From the NCBI GenBank assembly GCA_029939575.1, contig JAOZSR010000002.1, forward strand, positions 1-64,000: a DNA stretch of 64,000 bases. Direction: 5' to 3'. Positions 4,601 to 10,850 of the stretch are shown here, piece by piece (the first letter of the stretch is position 1; every line of letters begins with the position of its first letter). A model generated the notes under the pieces. That model ran no database searches. It worked only from the letters and a program-made list of their open reading frames with translations, and was not told the DNA's origin. The translations under genes were made by a program, and so were the position numbers. The stretch is from Fidelibacterota bacterium (GTDB lineage Bacteria > Fidelibacterota > UBA2242 > JAOZSR01).

Positions 4601-5051
4601 TTAAACCAGTGGTTTGACGGGAATTACAATATCTACATCAAACTTATGTTCAGGATCTTGTGCCGGATCATTGTTGCACAATTCAAAACTAGGACGATCA
4701 TCTGGTTGATAGCCACTTTCCGGTATATTTCTTGAATAACCTGGCAAAAGAAGATGAATCTGATAATCCACAGTCAAACATTACTTCTGTTATTGATTTA
4801 TTAATATCTGCAATTAAAAGTATAGCAGTTTTTTCCATTCGTAGCCGACTAATGAATTGATTAAGGGTTTCACCAATCATTGCAGCAAAAATCCTATGAA
4901 AATGATAGGAAGAAAAATTCGCCACAGTAGCAATTTCCTGAAGACTTAGATTTTGAGTTAAATTCATTTCAATATAATCAATAACCCGATTAATCCTGGA
5001 AACATATTCCCCCCGAAAATATTTATTATCCTTTATTTTGGAATTGTACAC
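4601..5051 (-). pseudogene. AraC-family regulator with internally deleted, frame-shifted GyrI-like C-terminus; the intact ORF 4698..5051 retains the AraC HTH
   Basis: ORF 4698..5051 gives an AraC HTH (SLQEIATVANFSSYHFHRIFAAMIGE...DSSSFARLFKKY). Another frame continues IPESGYQPDDRPSFELCNNDPAQDPEHKFDVDIVIPVKPLV-stop, the typical GyrI-like C-terminus. Confidence 0.75.
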
Positions 5052-5362
5052 TATTTCCCCTTTTCTTCATTTTTTGGATAGATCACATTTTCCAGGACTT
5101 TTACATATTTTCCAAAAGCCTTCCTGCCATTATCCGAAATCTTACAAATAGTTTTAGGTTTATTATCAACAAAATATTTCTTTATCTCAATATAACCGGC
5201 TTTATTTAATTTTTGAAGATGTGTGCTGAGATTTCCATCAGTTGCCCCGGTAGATTCTTTTATAAAATTAAAATCAACCTCCTCTACACTTATAAGAAGT
5301 GACATAATCGCCAGTCGAATTCGCGAATGTAATAATGGATCAATTTCTTTAAAATTTATCAT
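5051..5362 (-). CDS. Winged-helix (HTH_27/MarR-like) transcriptional regulator
   Basis: DPLLHSRIRLAIMSLL...GATDGNLSTHLQKLNKAGYIEIKKYF...NGRKAFGKYV. Confidence 0.8.
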   Translation of the reverse strand: MINFKEIDPLLHSRIRLAIMSLLISVEEVDFNFIKESTGATDGNLSTHLQKLNKAGYIEIKKYFVDNKPKTICKISDNGRKAFGKYVKVLENVIYPKNEEKGK

Positions 5363-5366
5363 AATG

Positions 5367-5963
5367 TTACACTTTTTTATATTCTTTTCTGAGAGTATAG
5401 CCGGGAATTAAATATGCTATAATCACAACACCTCCAAAAATCATGTTATGATAAAAGGGATTAATAAACATTGTTGCAATGCCTGCTACCCACCACAGCA
5501 TGGAGCAATAAAACAAAAACTTCCATTCAATTATTTTTGAAGTTACCAATGTACCAATTCCAGCCAGTAATGCCATTAGTGGTGTAATTGCCTGCCAACC
5601 AATAATACCCGATGCCGGAGCAATAAATCCTATAATAAACATTGCTGATCCACACCCAATCCAAATCCAACCTATAGATTTTTCAGCATAGGTCAATATC
5701 TTTTGTGTTTTGTGAGTTTTAAATTCAATAATAAAATGAACAATTCCACCGGCAGGCATAAAAATAGCCCATGGCAACCACGATAATGGAGGAGAACCAA
5801 AAAAAATGATAATATAATGAAAAATACATGAAGCCAAAATAAACCAGCCCCACATAATTAAAGGCCAGCCGTTATCAACAGTATTTTTTTTTGTTTTTTC
5901 GATCATTTCCCGAATGACCAGGAGTTGTTCATTTGCAGAAATTTTTTGTTCATTAGTATTCAT
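5367..5963 (-). CDS. Multi-TM membrane protein co-transcribed with winged-helix regulator
   Basis: 198 aa, about six hydrophobic segments, 4 bp from the regulator gene. Confidence 0.6.
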   Translation of the reverse strand: MNTNEQKISANEQLLVIREMIEKTKKNTVDNGWPLIMWGWFILASCIFHYIIIFFGSPPLSWLPWAIFMPAGGIVHFIIEFKTHKTQKILTYAEKSIGWIWIGCGSAMFIIGFIAPASGIIGWQAITPLMALLAGIGTLVTSKIIEWKFLFYCSMLWWVAGIATMFINPFYHNMIFGGVVIIAYLIPGYTLRKEYKKV

Positions 5964-5988
5964 AGCGCCTCCAAATTATTCTTTAAAG

Positions 5989-6007
5989 TACTTTGTATTA
6001 CAAAGTA
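5989..6007. promoter_or_regulatory. Perfect palindromic operator TACTTTG-TATTA-CAAAGTA
   Basis: 7-bp perfect arms directly downstream of a -35/-10 pair read on the minus strand. Confidence 0.75.
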
Positions 6008-6027
6008 AGTTTACAAATACTTACTTT
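6002..6027. repeat. Second inverted repeat in the same promoter, AAAGTAAG-N10-CTTACTTT
   Basis: Perfect 8-bp arms, overlapping the first operator and the -10. Confidence 0.55.
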
Positions 6028-6036
6028 CTTTGTCAA
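6008..6036 (-). promoter_or_regulatory. Sigma70-type promoter TTGACA-N17-TAAACT for the 5963..4601 operon
   Basis: TTGACA (complement of 6031-6036), 17-nt spacer, TAAACT (complement of 6008-6013). Confidence 0.65.
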
Positions 6037-6111
6037 GTTTTTTTAAAAATATTTTAAAAGATGGTAATTATATAACCTAAAAAATCTCGCAAGCCTGGAA
6101 GACCTAGGTTG

Positions 6112-7272
6112 TTATTTATCCTGCATTTCACCAATACTATTCATAATAAATTTATCAATTATTTCACCTGTAGGTGTTACCACTGTAAAACTGAGTCTAT
6201 CATTTTCAATCTCAACTTTACAGTAATGAAGAGTTTTAGCAGCTTTTACAATATTTGGTTGATCTTTTTTAAAATCATAAAGTGGCGCGCCACCACCTCC
6301 AGTTGTAATATGCTGAACTCTATTAACACTTGCTCTTGCGTAATAGTGATTGTGACCAGCTAAGACTAAATTAATATTATATTTCTCACAAATAGGTTGA
6401 ATTTTTTCTTGAACAAATTTTGAGTTTGAATGACCACCGGCAGTCCAACCGGGTTCATGAAGAGCTAATATTTTCCACTTTTTATTTGTGTTTTTCATAT
6501 CCTGTTCAAAATATTCCAATTCCTTTTCCATAGCCTCATCATTTTCCAAATATAGATCAAACATAAAAATATGTGCTGGCCCATAATCAAAAGACCAATA
6601 TTCACCTGCATGAAATGGGTAAGGAAAATATTTTCTTAATAAACCTTTTTGTCCATAATTATGATTCCCTTCAACAGGAAGAAGTGGTATATGGGAATAC
6701 AAATGACGAATATTTTTTAAATTTGGATCAAAAAATTCCCTTTGCCAATGAGATTCTTTTTTGCCTTTTCCAACAATATCACCAGATGAAATTATAAAAG
6801 ATTGAAAAAATGCATCTTTTTTAAATTCCTGAACCATTGACGCAGCAAGAGAATCGTGGTTTTGGGGATATGTTCTATGATCACCATAAACCATAAATTT
6901 TATTTTTGTTTCTGAATCTTTGGGTGCTGTAACAAAGGAACTTCGATATTTATTATCTTTGATTATTACTTCATAAAAATATTTTGTTCCCGGTTTTAAA
7001 TCTTTTAAAACTATTGAGTACAAATTAAAATCATCTTTATTAGATACTATTACTTTTTTTGATAACCATTTTTTATGTTTACCATACTTTAAAATCGATA
7101 ATCTAGTAGAATCCAGTTGAAAACATATTTTTGTTTCCGTATTATTTCCAGTAAAAATAAGATAAGGCTCTTTCACTACTATTTGTTTATTGTTTTTGCC
7201 AAAAACTGTCAAAACTAATATAAATATTAAAGTAATTAACTTTAAACTTTTCAAGATATTTTTTTGTATCAT
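6112..7272 (-). CDS. Purple-acid-phosphatase-like metallophosphoesterase
   Basis: Fibronectin-like N-domain, then KFMVYGDHRTYPQ, SSGDIVG, VEGNHNYG, LALHEPGW, LVLAGHNHYY metal-binding motifs. Confidence 0.85.
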   Translation of the reverse strand: MIQKNILKSLKLITLIFILVLTVFGKNNKQIVVKEPYLIFTGNNTETKICFQLDSTRLSILKYGKHKKWLSKKVIVSNKDDFNLYSIVLKDLKPGTKYFYEVIIKDNKYRSSFVTAPKDSETKIKFMVYGDHRTYPQNHDSLAASMVQEFKKDAFFQSFIISSGDIVGKGKKESHWQREFFDPNLKNIRHLYSHIPLLPVEGNHNYGQKGLLRKYFPYPFHAGEYWSFDYGPAHIFMFDLYLENDEAMEKELEYFEQDMKNTNKKWKILALHEPGWTAGGHSNSKFVQEKIQPICEKYNINLVLAGHNHYYARASVNRVQHITTGGGGAPLYDFKKDQPNIVKAAKTLHYCKVEIENDRLSFTVVTPTGEIIDKFIMNSIGEMQDK

Positions 7273-7645
7273 ATGTTTAATCCTTTAATCATAATATGGT
7301 TTTATAAAAAAATTAATTCTCCAAAAAATACAAATAATAAACATATTTATTAAATGATTATTCTCATTTTTATTAAAAAAAAAGATTATTTATATATTAA
7401 TAAGACAGCACCAAGCATTGTGAAAAAATATCTATTTGCTAATTACATAAAACGGTGTTCTAATAAGCTCAATTAGGATTAATTCTTTAACTAAGATTAT
7501 CTCTCAATCCATTTTCAAAACAGATTAAAATAACAATCATGTCCTCTTTGAAATCAAAATCATATAAACTCTAATTAATTAATACAAATTCCCTATCAAC
7601 GACAATATAAATTCCCTGTTTTTTATGTCATTTCGTCAGCAGATC

Positions 7646-7717
7646 GTTGTTACACTACCTCAGACTATGTCCGGCTTTCGACGGAAAAACAGCTTCAAAC
7701 TTTTTTACAATTCCATT
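7646..7717 (+). repeat. Dispersed intergenic repeat, copy A
   Basis: Matches 63183-63254 ungapped at 60/72 positions, with an identical 26-nt core CCTCAGACTATGTCCGGCTTTCGACG. Confidence 0.8.
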
Positions 7718-7743
7718 AACCAAAATAAAAAAATAAAAAAAAC

Positions 7744-7772
7744 TTGACTTTCAGTATTCCGGTTTGTAATAT
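7744..7772 (+). promoter_or_regulatory. Sigma70-type promoter TTGACT-N17-TAATAT for the 7860..9959 operon
   Basis: Read directly; the -10 lies inside the first operator palindrome. Confidence 0.65.
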
Positions 7773-7830
7773 AAACCAAGTTTGCAACACAAACTAAGAA
7801 CTTGCCGCAAACTGGTTTCTGACAAACAAA
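7761..7830. promoter_or_regulatory. Tandem operator array with 18-bp period: GGTTTGTAATATAAACC, AGTTTGCAACACAAACT, AGAACTTGCCGCAAACT (degenerate), then GGTTTCTGACAAACAAA (weak)
   Basis: 17-mers start at 7761, 7779, 7797 and about 7814; the first two are clear inverted repeats. Confidence 0.65.
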
Positions 7831-7859: not shown

Positions 7860-8435
7860 ATGAGAAATAAAATGAGTACAAACAATTATGAATCAAAAGT
7901 ATATCTGGCTTTTATGGAAGATGGAGTTATGGAAATTGGATTAGGCATCTGGCTGTTGCTTATCGGATTATTCATAACATTCAATCAAATAGCATTTCTC
8001 GGTGTTGCAATAATTCCAACAATATTTATTGTACCTTTGAAGAAAAAATTCACTTATCCACGAATAGGATTTGTAAAGATTAAAACCAACACCAAACTAC
8101 AAACAAAAAGACTTAGTATTATCTTGTCTGTTGGACTAATTGGTATTCTGTCATCTATGTTTTTCATTCTTAAACCTGGTATCATGAGTATCAAATCTAT
8201 TATCTTTATTACCGGTATAGTTGCAATTATTATGTTGTTAACCGATGCAATTATAATGAAAATAAAGCGTAATTACATTTATGCATTAGTTACCGCAATA
8301 GTGTTTTTTATTGCGGGAATGAAGTGGTTAGAATTTAAAACCATATTATTAATACTTGGTGGAGCAGCAATTTTTGATGGTATCACAATGCTTTTAAAAT
8401 TTATTAAAAAATATCCAATAGAAAACATTGGATAG
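7860..8435 (+). CDS. Membrane protein, paralog 1 of tandem triplet
   Basis: YLAFMEDGVMEIGLGIWLLLIGLF; PLKKKFTYPRIGFVKI; C-terminal KFIKKYP. ATG chosen over the TTG at 7851; 7872 is also possible. Confidence 0.7.
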   Translation: MRNKMSTNNYESKVYLAFMEDGVMEIGLGIWLLLIGLFITFNQIAFLGVAIIPTIFIVPLKKKFTYPRIGFVKIKTNTKLQTKRLSIILSVGLIGILSSMFFILKPGIMSIKSIIFITGIVAIIMLLTDAIIMKIKRNYIYALVTAIVFFIAGMKWLEFKTILLILGGAAIFDGITMLLKFIKKYPIENIG

Positions 8436-8447
8436 GAGAAATTAATC

Positions 8448-9050
8448 ATGAAACCTTTGCATACAATTAAAGATATCGAAAATAATATCTACTTAAAATA
8501 TCAACAGGATGGCATATTAGAAACTTTGGTAGGAATTCTAATAATCGGTTTTGCCTTTGGAATCCATTTTGACCTCTATTATATTGGAACAATTTTTTTC
8601 TTGTTTGGTGTTCCGGTTTTCTATGGATTGAAGAAAAAATTCACATTGCCAAAACTTGGATATATTAAATTCAGTAGTACCAGGCAGAATAAAATAAAAA
8701 TGGAAAAATCTGTTTTTAGTATTTTCTTCTCATTAATACTTATTTCAGGCATTATTATATATTTTTATTTTACAAAAGATAATCGGTTTGAACCTTTTCT
8801 AAGAAAATTTATCTTATTACCTTTTGGCATAATTGGTTTAATCTGTTTTTCTTTAATTGCATATTTTAAAAAATTAATTAGGTTTATTTTTTATGCCCTG
8901 GTTCTGCTTCTTTCCACAATTATCGGTCCAATATTAAACCTTCCTGTTCCCCTTTATTTCAGTATTGCAGGCGCGATCATAACAATATCCGGACTAATAT
9001 ATTTAATAATTTTCATCAAAAAATATTCTTCTTATATTGGAGGACAGTAA
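8448..9050 (+). CDS. Membrane protein, paralog 2 of tandem triplet
   Basis: YLKYQQDGILETLVGILIIGF; GLKKKFTLPKLGYIKF; FIKKYS. Confidence 0.7.
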   Translation: MKPLHTIKDIENNIYLKYQQDGILETLVGILIIGFAFGIHFDLYYIGTIFFLFGVPVFYGLKKKFTLPKLGYIKFSSTRQNKIKMEKSVFSIFFSLILISGIIIYFYFTKDNRFEPFLRKFILLPFGIIGLICFSLIAYFKKLIRFIFYALVLLLSTIIGPILNLPVPLYFSIAGAIITISGLIYLIIFIKKYSSYIGGQ

Positions 9051-9652
9051 TGAATAATAAAATTAATCTTACACAAATCGAAAAAAAGGCATTCTTGACT
9101 TATTTCGAGGATGGAATTTTGGATATATGTGTCGGTTTGCTATTTTTAATTCAAGGTTTCCTGTTAGACTTTGGAAAAGCTCCATTCATTTATATTTCAT
9201 GGATACCTGTAATACTGATTTATCCCATAAAGAAAAGTATAACATTTCCAAGAATGGGATTTGTTCAATTTCGGAAAACAAAGAAAAGAAAAAATCAAAA
9301 AACTATCATGTTTCTGATGATGGCCGGTATTGTTGTATTTCTTGCATTATTACTTCATGTAAAAATTTTATCTAAGGGCAATTTCATTGAAAAATTTGGA
9401 TTTATTGTTTTGGGAATTATCATCTCAGCACCTCCATTTATTGGTTCAGTTATTACCGGAATTACTCGCTTCACAATATATTCACTTATATTATTAGTAG
9501 TATTTATTCATGAAAATTTCACTCATTCTACAGTTCCCATAGACTTTATGATCTTTGGTAGCATTATGCTGGTTATCGGAATATTTTTTCTATTCAAATT
9601 CCTAAAAAAATATCCAAATCAAAAAAATGAGGAATTATCTCATGAAAAATAA
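9050..9652 (+). CDS. Membrane protein, paralog 3 of tandem triplet
   Basis: FLTYFEDGILDICVGLLFLIQGF; PIKKSITFPRMGFVQF; KFLKKYP. Confidence 0.7.
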   Translation: MNNKINLTQIEKKAFLTYFEDGILDICVGLLFLIQGFLLDFGKAPFIYISWIPVILIYPIKKSITFPRMGFVQFRKTKKRKNQKTIMFLMMAGIVVFLALLLHVKILSKGNFIEKFGFIVLGIIISAPPFIGSVITGITRFTIYSLILLVVFIHENFTHSTVPIDFMIFGSIMLVIGIFFLFKFLKKYPNQKNEELSHEK

Positions 9653-9959
9653 AACCGAATCAAATGGATTCCCAAAAATTGACAAAATCGTACATGAACC
9701 GGCACGACTTATGATTATGACCTTTCTTTATGTAATTGACAGTTCTGATTTTCTCTTTCTCATGCGTCAAACAGGATTAACAAAAGGAAATCTTTCATCC
9801 CATATGAATAAACTTGAAGATGCCGGATATGTTGACATAGAAAAAAAATTCATTGATAAAATTCCCAGAACAATGCTCAAACTTTCAAAAAAAGGACGAA
9901 AAGCTTTTAAAGATTACAGGAACACTATAATTGAATTATTTAAAGATATGCCGGAATGA
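9642..9959 (+). CDS. Winged-helix (HTH_27/MarR-like) transcriptional regulator, paralog of 5051..5362
   Basis: HEPARLMIMTFLYVIDSSDFLFLMRQTGLTKGNLSSHMNKLEDAGYVDIEKKF...KKGRKAFKDY; start set to the internal ATG overlapping the previous stop. Confidence 0.8.
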   Translation: MKNKTESNGFPKIDKIVHEPARLMIMTFLYVIDSSDFLFLMRQTGLTKGNLSSHMNKLEDAGYVDIEKKFIDKIPRTMLKLSKKGRKAFKDYRNTIIELFKDMPE

Positions 9960-10015: not shown

Positions 10016-10033
10016 TGTAAAGCAGACTTGACA
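10016..10033. promoter_or_regulatory. Operator half-copy TGTAAAG-CAGA-CTTGACA
   Basis: One mismatch in the arms relative to the perfect copy at 10061. Confidence 0.55.
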
Positions 10034-10060
10034 TTACCAATTTCACAACCTATATTTCAA

Positions 10061-10078
10061 TGTAAAGCGAACTTTACA
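10061..10078. promoter_or_regulatory. Operator TGTAAAG-CGAA-CTTTACA upstream of the XRE regulator
   Basis: Perfect 7-bp arms, 45 bp from the first copy, 18 bp before the ATG. Confidence 0.7.
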
Positions 10079-10095
10079 ATAACTGGAGATTAACG

Positions 10096-10314
10096 ATGAA
10101 GCCAAAAATTATTAACCAGGTCAGAGAATTTAGAAAATCATCTGCTATGACTCAGGACGAACTTGCTCACCTCACTAAAGTCAGCAGGCAATCGATTATT
10201 TCTATAGAAAAAGGTAAATATATACCAAGTCTTCCCCTTGCATTGAAATTGTCACAAATTTTCAACTGTTCAACAGATAAACTATTTTTTTTGGAGGAAA
10301 AACACCATGGATGA
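10096..10314 (+). CDS. XRE-family HTH regulator
   Basis: REFRKSSAMTQDELAHLTKVSRQSIISIEKGKYIPSLPLALKLSQIFNCSTDKLF. Confidence 0.9.
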   Translation: MKPKIINQVREFRKSSAMTQDELAHLTKVSRQSIISIEKGKYIPSLPLALKLSQIFNCSTDKLFFLEEKHHG

Positions 10315-10501
10315 AAGATTTATACTTCACAGATTGTATTCGACTCGATTTTCTATGTTAATTGGACTTATTGCTATGTTTATATGGTTCAATATTGAAA
10401 TGTTTAAAAATGATACTTTACGCTGGGATATTTTTTATTTTATATTGATTTTCGCAGTTAGTAAAGTTGGCGCAATGATCTATTTTAAATTGACTAATTA
10501 A
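10307..10501 (+). CDS. Small two-TM protein overlapping the XRE gene
   Basis: 64 aa, two hydrophobic segments, 8-bp overlap. Confidence 0.6.
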   Translation: MDERFILHRLYSTRFSMLIGLIAMFIWFNIEMFKNDTLRWDIFYFILIFAVSKVGAMIYFKLTN

Positions 10502-10565
10502 GTTGAAATCGTGAATTGGTTAAATTCGTTGAAGTTGGAAATTAGGAAAATAAAAGGAAAAAATT

Positions 10566-10850
10566 ATGTTATTACTTTCAAAAAAATTTCGGGAAAAATT
10601 TAATACAGCACAAAAAATGATTGGATTAGGTCAGGCATTATTGGTATTTGGACTTGTCTTACTGGCTCTCGGAGTATTGACAATGAATATTATTGATGGT
10701 AATCTAATGACTGATTATTTTAATGCAGAAAATTGGGATACAAGACTCAACAACTTTCTTTCTGGATTATCATTAGGTTTAGGTTCCGTCTTAATGGGAC
10801 TTTCTATTGTGCTAAATGTACAAGGCATTAAAATGTATAAAAAAAAATAA
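10566..10850 (+). CDS. Small membrane protein
   Basis: 94 aa, two hydrophobic segments. Confidence 0.55.
   Translation: MLLLSKKFREKFNTAQKMIGLGQALLVFGLVLLALGVLTMNIIDGNLMTDYFNAENWDTRLNNFLSGLSLGLGSVLMGLSIVLNVQGIKMYKKK

Follow-up and report, generated by a model that had tools for sequence, protein, structure and literature searches.

Why should one locus carry two small winged-helix regulators, each encoded with membrane proteins of about 200 amino acids, and why should the palindromes at their promoters share a layout and yet differ in one symmetric pair of letters? For this locus, which lies in a window of 64,000 nucleotides (the whole stretch of DNA that was analysed), the initial annotation proposed a pair of paralogous, mutually insulated autorepressors whose specificities had evolved together with their operators. 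The two regulators and the residues discussed below are as follows.

5051..5362, minus strand: regulator A, HTH_34 winged-helix protein of 103 aa, A-type subfamily (PF13601, 108.1 bits)
9642..9959, plus strand: regulator B, HTH_34 winged-helix protein of 105 aa (PF13601, 84.4 bits; AlphaFold2 pLDDT 90)
5237-5239, minus strand: codon of specificity residue D42 of regulator A
9783-9785, plus strand: codon of specificity residue K48 of regulator B, the first residue of the recognition helix

That the two are paralogs is borne out, as both score above the curated 27-bit cut-off of PF13601 (HTH_34) over the domain, share 47% identity over 83 amino acids, and are the only members of this family in the source genome. 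The AlphaFold2 model of B has a winged-helix fold in which the recognition helix spans residues 48-60, beginning at K48, and its nearest PDB entry is 1ub9 (TM 0.80), which is itself found with the HTH_34 profile at an E value of 7.5e-12. The short PF01022 domain scores over its own cut-off in the regulators, whilst the full-length ArsR model NF033788 gives 27 and 22.7 bits for A and B, below its cut-off of 55, and a Pfam profile search with the PadR domain matched neither protein. By sequence, A has one cysteine and B none.

Regulator A is encoded behind the gene for a 198-aa membrane protein, and operon B consists of four genes, three of them for related membrane proteins of about 200 amino acids, with regulator B last.

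5367..5963, minus strand: membrane protein of cassette A, 198 aa, kept upstream of A-type regulators; no Pfam family above cut-off
7863..8435, plus strand: membrane protein 1 of operon B
8448..9050, plus strand: membrane protein 2 of operon B, related to the other membrane proteins
9050..9652, plus strand: membrane protein 3 of operon B, helical membrane model (pLDDT 86)

The gene order, a membrane protein of about 200 amino acids followed by an HTH_34 regulator, recurs among relatives, and the finding points to a widespread membrane-protein cassette of an uncharacterised family. In searches against Pfam the membrane proteins of the cassettes match no family above cut-off, and the model of membrane protein 3 has no significant fold match among PDB or viral structures. 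In Bacillus subtilis, SdpRI pairs an ArsR-type autorepressor with a membrane protein able to relieve repression. This is an analogy in the way the cassettes may work. The SdpI domain is not recognised in the cassette membrane proteins: assignment to SdpI was rejected at 14.8 bits against a cut-off of 28.2, with only 1 of 15 members matching even weakly. Apparent membrane protein-regulator fusions, seen as long open reading frames in GC-rich loci, were rejected as out-of-frame extensions that are not hydrophobic.

The candidate operators and promoters of the two cassettes are as follows.

5990..6006, minus strand: operator A, C2 class, ACTTTGTAATACAAAGT; conserved in A-type cassettes
5973..5989, minus strand: weak second operator adjoining operator A, ACTTTAAAGAATAATTT; second sites phased at 17 bp are enriched across the family
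6008..6036, minus strand: predicted promoter A, TTGACA (6036-6031), 17 nt, TAAACT (6013-6008); consensus match only
7744..7772, plus strand: predicted promoter B, TTGACT (7744-7749), 17 nt, TAATAT (7767-7772); consensus match only
7761..7777, plus strand: operator B-O1, GGTTTGTAATATAAACC, covering the predicted -10
7779..7795, plus strand: operator B-O2, G2 class, AGTTTGCAACACAAACT; exact palindrome
7797..7813, plus strand: weak third copy at promoter B, AGAACTTGCCGCAAACT, in the same 18-bp phase as O1 and O2, matching at 8 or more of 12 positions

Both palindromes first reported, ACTTTGTATTACAAAGT at 5990-6006 and its counterpart at 7779-7795, are exact, and positions 2 and 16 do switch from C/G in A to G/C in B. 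The further claim that each palindrome overlaps or abuts the -10 stands for A, where the operator abuts TAAACT (6013-6008, minus strand), but not for the B site originally described, which sits 6 bp downstream of TAATAT (7767-7772); the -10 of promoter B is instead covered by B-O1, which had been missed. Both cassettes have an operator on their own core promoter, the promoters being predicted by consensus only.

Two short palindromes in AT-rich promoters might be accidents, and within the window neither pattern is enriched: one has 8 matches (at up to 2 mismatches) where 5.75 are expected, and the other 52 where shuffled sequence gives 51.1. As the window alone leaves the palindromes at chance level, we turned to comparison across relatives, drawn from the phylum of the window and from named genome contigs that cover many phyla, archaeal ones among them. 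Genomes of Chloroflexota, Bacteroidota, Gemmatimonadota, Verrucomicrobiota and the archaeal phylum of the ANME-2 locus L042 were also sampled, each sampled group carrying the name of the locus used as its centre. Of 269 non-redundant cassettes, a scan blind to the protein accepted a site in 179; with the pattern reversed it accepted one in 19. This conservation of both position and sequence refutes chance for the family and leaves it scarcely credible as an explanation here. The consensus, ACTTT[GA]-N5-[CT]AAAGT or the G2 form xGTTTG-N5-CAAACx, lies just upstream of the membrane gene. In the final set of 294 related cassettes, bacterial and archaeal, 197 had an accepted operator and about a third were without one. 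Taxa that keep the operator include Neomarinimicrobiota, Chloroflexota, Gemmatimonadota, Bacteroidota, Verrucomicrobiota, Bathyarchaeota and Methanosarcinales, among others. Of the two classes C2 is seen more often, and G2 turns up again and again in many phyla, so that the symmetric divergence is not confined to A and B.

Could these sites belong to some regulator other than the HTH_34 protein of the cassette? The remnant of an AraC-type gene follows the A operon and is a candidate in the window. Across most cassettes, though, the AraC-type gene is missing or different, whilst the site follows the HTH_34 cassette in bacteria and archaea alike and its letters covary with the recognition helix of that protein, as described below. 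We regard a foreign regulator as very improbable.

The placement of the operators bears on what binding by the HTH_34 protein would do. Bacterial operators have a -35-like TTGAC 20-50 bp upstream, and in archaea the TATA box starts directly after the operator, with TATATA 2 nt behind in 11 of 28 cases. In the archaeal loci L040-L074 the weak second operator itself contains the TATA box. One type of operator thus appears to serve the core promoters of both domains. With bacterial operators lying over the -10 or start region and archaeal ones next to the TATA box, autorepression by A and B is the mode of action that we infer from position. The main site often has a weaker copy directly alongside, at 17 or 18 bp (37 of 190 at +17 and 16 at -17, with a background of about 1), which makes tandem dimers likely, an arrangement that suggests cooperative binding.

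A link between protein and operator comes from the residue preceding GNLS, D42 in A and K48 in B, referred to here as residue 48, which predicts position 2 of the operator. Lysine, arginine, glutamine, asparagine or glycine at this residue goes with G2, and aspartate, phenylalanine, tryptophan, proline or histidine with C2. In the primary site set, all 180 cassettes with a symmetric position 2 agree (180/180). The rule was fixed in writing after the first 210 regulators and then applied to loci fetched later. There, Asp gave C2 in 27 of 27 loci; in the next batch K or R gave G2 in 8 of 8 and Trp gave C2 in the single case (1/1); and in the last hold-out loci two Arg went with G2, four Asp with C2 and one Pro with C2. 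Gly48, which was absent from the written rule, had G2 in 6 of 6 hold-out loci and in one earlier case. The initial annotation had suggested looking in homologous operons for covariation of positions 2 and 16 with recognition-helix residues, and such covariation is found; the co-evolution of regulator and operator that it proposed is strongly supported by this pattern of sequence change, at a position that tracks the D42/K48 residue in the primary site set and in the hold-out loci.

It might be objected that the operators are real and that residue 48 is a mere marker of lineage, with residues of the wing or helix 3 setting the specificity. Residue 41 and wing residue 74 (I/V vs K/R) also track the split, and the tree contains few supported changes. 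The best tree has seven changes, all coincident between residue 48 and position 2, of which the supported branches force three; with only two to three changes on well-supported branches, sign tests there cannot reach significance, and independence from phylogeny is therefore only partly shown. Against a lineage marker, the conditional entropy for position 2 falls to zero at no alignment column other than residue 48, and among the 77 rows lacking Asp or Glu residue 48 alone remains at zero, the next best column standing at 0.298 bits. Moreover, different branches combine G2 with K, R, Q, N or G, the hold-out loci obeyed the residue-48 rule, and residues 52 and 53/54, distinct from it, follow other base pairs. 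On balance we consider the lineage-marker explanation improbable and favour a role for residue 48 itself. Among the closest pairs that differ are L109 (K48, GGTTTG) and L074 (A48, ACTTTG), which are 87% identical over the comparable part, L074 ending at a contig edge. Residue 48 is not the sole determinant, since Ala48 is ambiguous: it accompanies C in archaea but G in one group of Bacteroidota, whereas the written rule had assigned C to Ala. Proteins with His48 can also have asymmetric sites, as in L039 (Methanophagales) and L231, where ACTTTG-N5-CAAACC joins a C2 half-site to a G2 half-site.

Two further base pairs appear to be read in the same manner. A further scan was run without regard to the letters at positions 2, 4 and 6, and its false rate is high (sites in 196 of 294 cassettes vs 62 of 294 with the pattern reversed). 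In it, base pair 2 was tracked best by residue 48, base pair 4 by residue 52 and base pair 6 by residues 53/54, all on the recognition helix and colinear with the base pairs. Gly52 is associated with C4 in 18 of 19 cases, compared with 4 of 186 for other residues. In the letter-blind scan, Gln54 accompanies A6 in 19 of 19, and His54 accompanies G6 in 95 and A6 in 18. We think it reasonably probable that a single ancestral 17-bp operator underlies the HTH_34 autoregulators of bacteria and archaea and is read through a colinear, modular code, in which residue 48 sets base pair 2 (G for K/R/Q/N/G, C for D/E/F/W/P/H), residue 52 sets base pair 4 (C for Gly or Tyr, T for Ser, Ala, Thr or Asn) and residue 54 sets base pair 6 (A for Gln, mostly G for His), so that operators would be predictable, and orthogonal repressor pairs findable, from sequence.

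Two groups of loci illustrate variation at base pair 4. In G001, a relative of the same order, the B-type paralog (L110) differs at base pair 4; it has Tyr52 in place of Ser, and its putative operator ACTCTTTAATAAAGAGT lies 707 bp before the domain, which by sequence looks to be another route to divergence. Four loci from the Chloroflexota search (L186, L187, L190 and L191) combine Q48 and G52 with ATTCTG-TGTAG-CAGAAT 71 bp before the domain, and appear to represent a further operator class (T2, C4).

Whether the divergence of A and B serves to insulate them, as was originally proposed, has a divided answer. For B-like regulators, the G2 operator is found in 13 of 16 with a D-type paralog in the genome, compared with 30 of 64 in other genomes (p 0.013 in a one-sided Fisher test, uncorrected for descent and with co-residence ascertained unevenly). 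On the other side, many G2 regulators occur in genomes with no second HTH_34 protein, both paralogs in G110 and in G1261 belong to the C2 class, and G094 has two D-type C2 cassettes. Mutual insulation might be a plausible consequence of divergence, and is at most one of its causes. The same facts bear on the proposal that the regulators activate, or only fine-tune, rather than repress, and that their operators diverged by drift and not for insulation. The G2 operators that stand without a second regulator and the same-class paralogs retained in G110 suit this proposal, as does the main site of archaea just upstream of the TATA box, where activators can act; the bacterial sites on the -10 or start region, and an association with co-residence that favours divergence, speak against it. 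We hold it to be somewhat unlikely, and retain repression as the preferred reading.

Taken as a whole, the locus very probably holds two paralogous cassettes of membrane protein and HTH_34 autoregulator, with operators on their own promoters, specificity set by the recognition helix, and repression as the likely outcome. In this scheme, each winged-helix dimer would bind 17-bp palindromic operators in its own promoter. One site is strong and often has a weaker neighbour directly beside it, which suggests that two or more dimers bind cooperatively, and blocking of the -10 and start site would most likely repress the operon. Base pair 2 would be read by the residue that opens the recognition helix, Asp (D42 of A) with C:G and Lys (K48 of B) with G:C, whilst residue 52 would read base pair 4 and residues 53/54 base pair 6, so that the paralogs would bind versions of a single ancestral site that differ by a mirrored base. 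As to the membrane proteins, one may conjecture that they sense a signal or release the repressor.

Direct base contact by residue 48 is suggested by analogy with ArsR-family NolR, in which Gln56 contacts bases, and with RexT, in which Lys50 is proposed to contact guanine (PMC8960804). Like A and B these are winged-helix proteins, and in them the residue that opens the recognition helix contacts bases, or in RexT is proposed to, but their operators differ, being (A/T)TTAG-N9-A(T/A) and ATTCG-N15-CGAAT, and neither a membrane-gene cassette nor covariation between operator and residue is described for them (PMC8960804). The solved HTH_34 example, PH1061 (1UB9), is like A and B in sequence family, fold and the TxGNL..H helix, and unlike them in having Pro at residue 48 and Asp at residue 52. 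PadR-type repressors, for instance in Listeria, are small winged-helix proteins that control membrane-protein operons (PMC6624303). In structure comparison they show fold similarity, but they constitute a different family, whose models did not match A or B. The archaeal regulator CsmR was considered as an operator precedent and set aside, its motif being unrelated. The HTH_34 family is common in bacteria and archaea, yet the open-access literature searched on PF13601, HTH_34 and PH1061 yielded no operator or DNA complex. The comparison supplies predicted operators for this large uncharacterised family, which appears to work on bacterial (-10) and archaeal (TATA) promoters alike, together with a natural recognition code in which a few residues would set a few base pairs, and it makes the separation of specificities between duplicated repressors testable by single exchanges. 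Such a general code is worth more than the A/B pair itself.

Two neighbouring features deserve mention. The AraC-type gene behind regulator A (4613-5051, minus strand) is a decayed copy: it shares the N-terminal helix-turn-helix part and the C-terminal tail of an intact 327-aa protein in L077 (G001), is without the middle part, and has its tail read in another frame. On the other flank, 10028-10850 (plus strand) holds a third cassette of autoregulatory appearance, in which an XRE protein (10096-10314) is accompanied by small membrane open reading frames, and a perfect inverted repeat, TGTAAAG-CGAA-CTTTACA (10061-10078), lies just behind the -10 of TTGACA-N17-TATATT.
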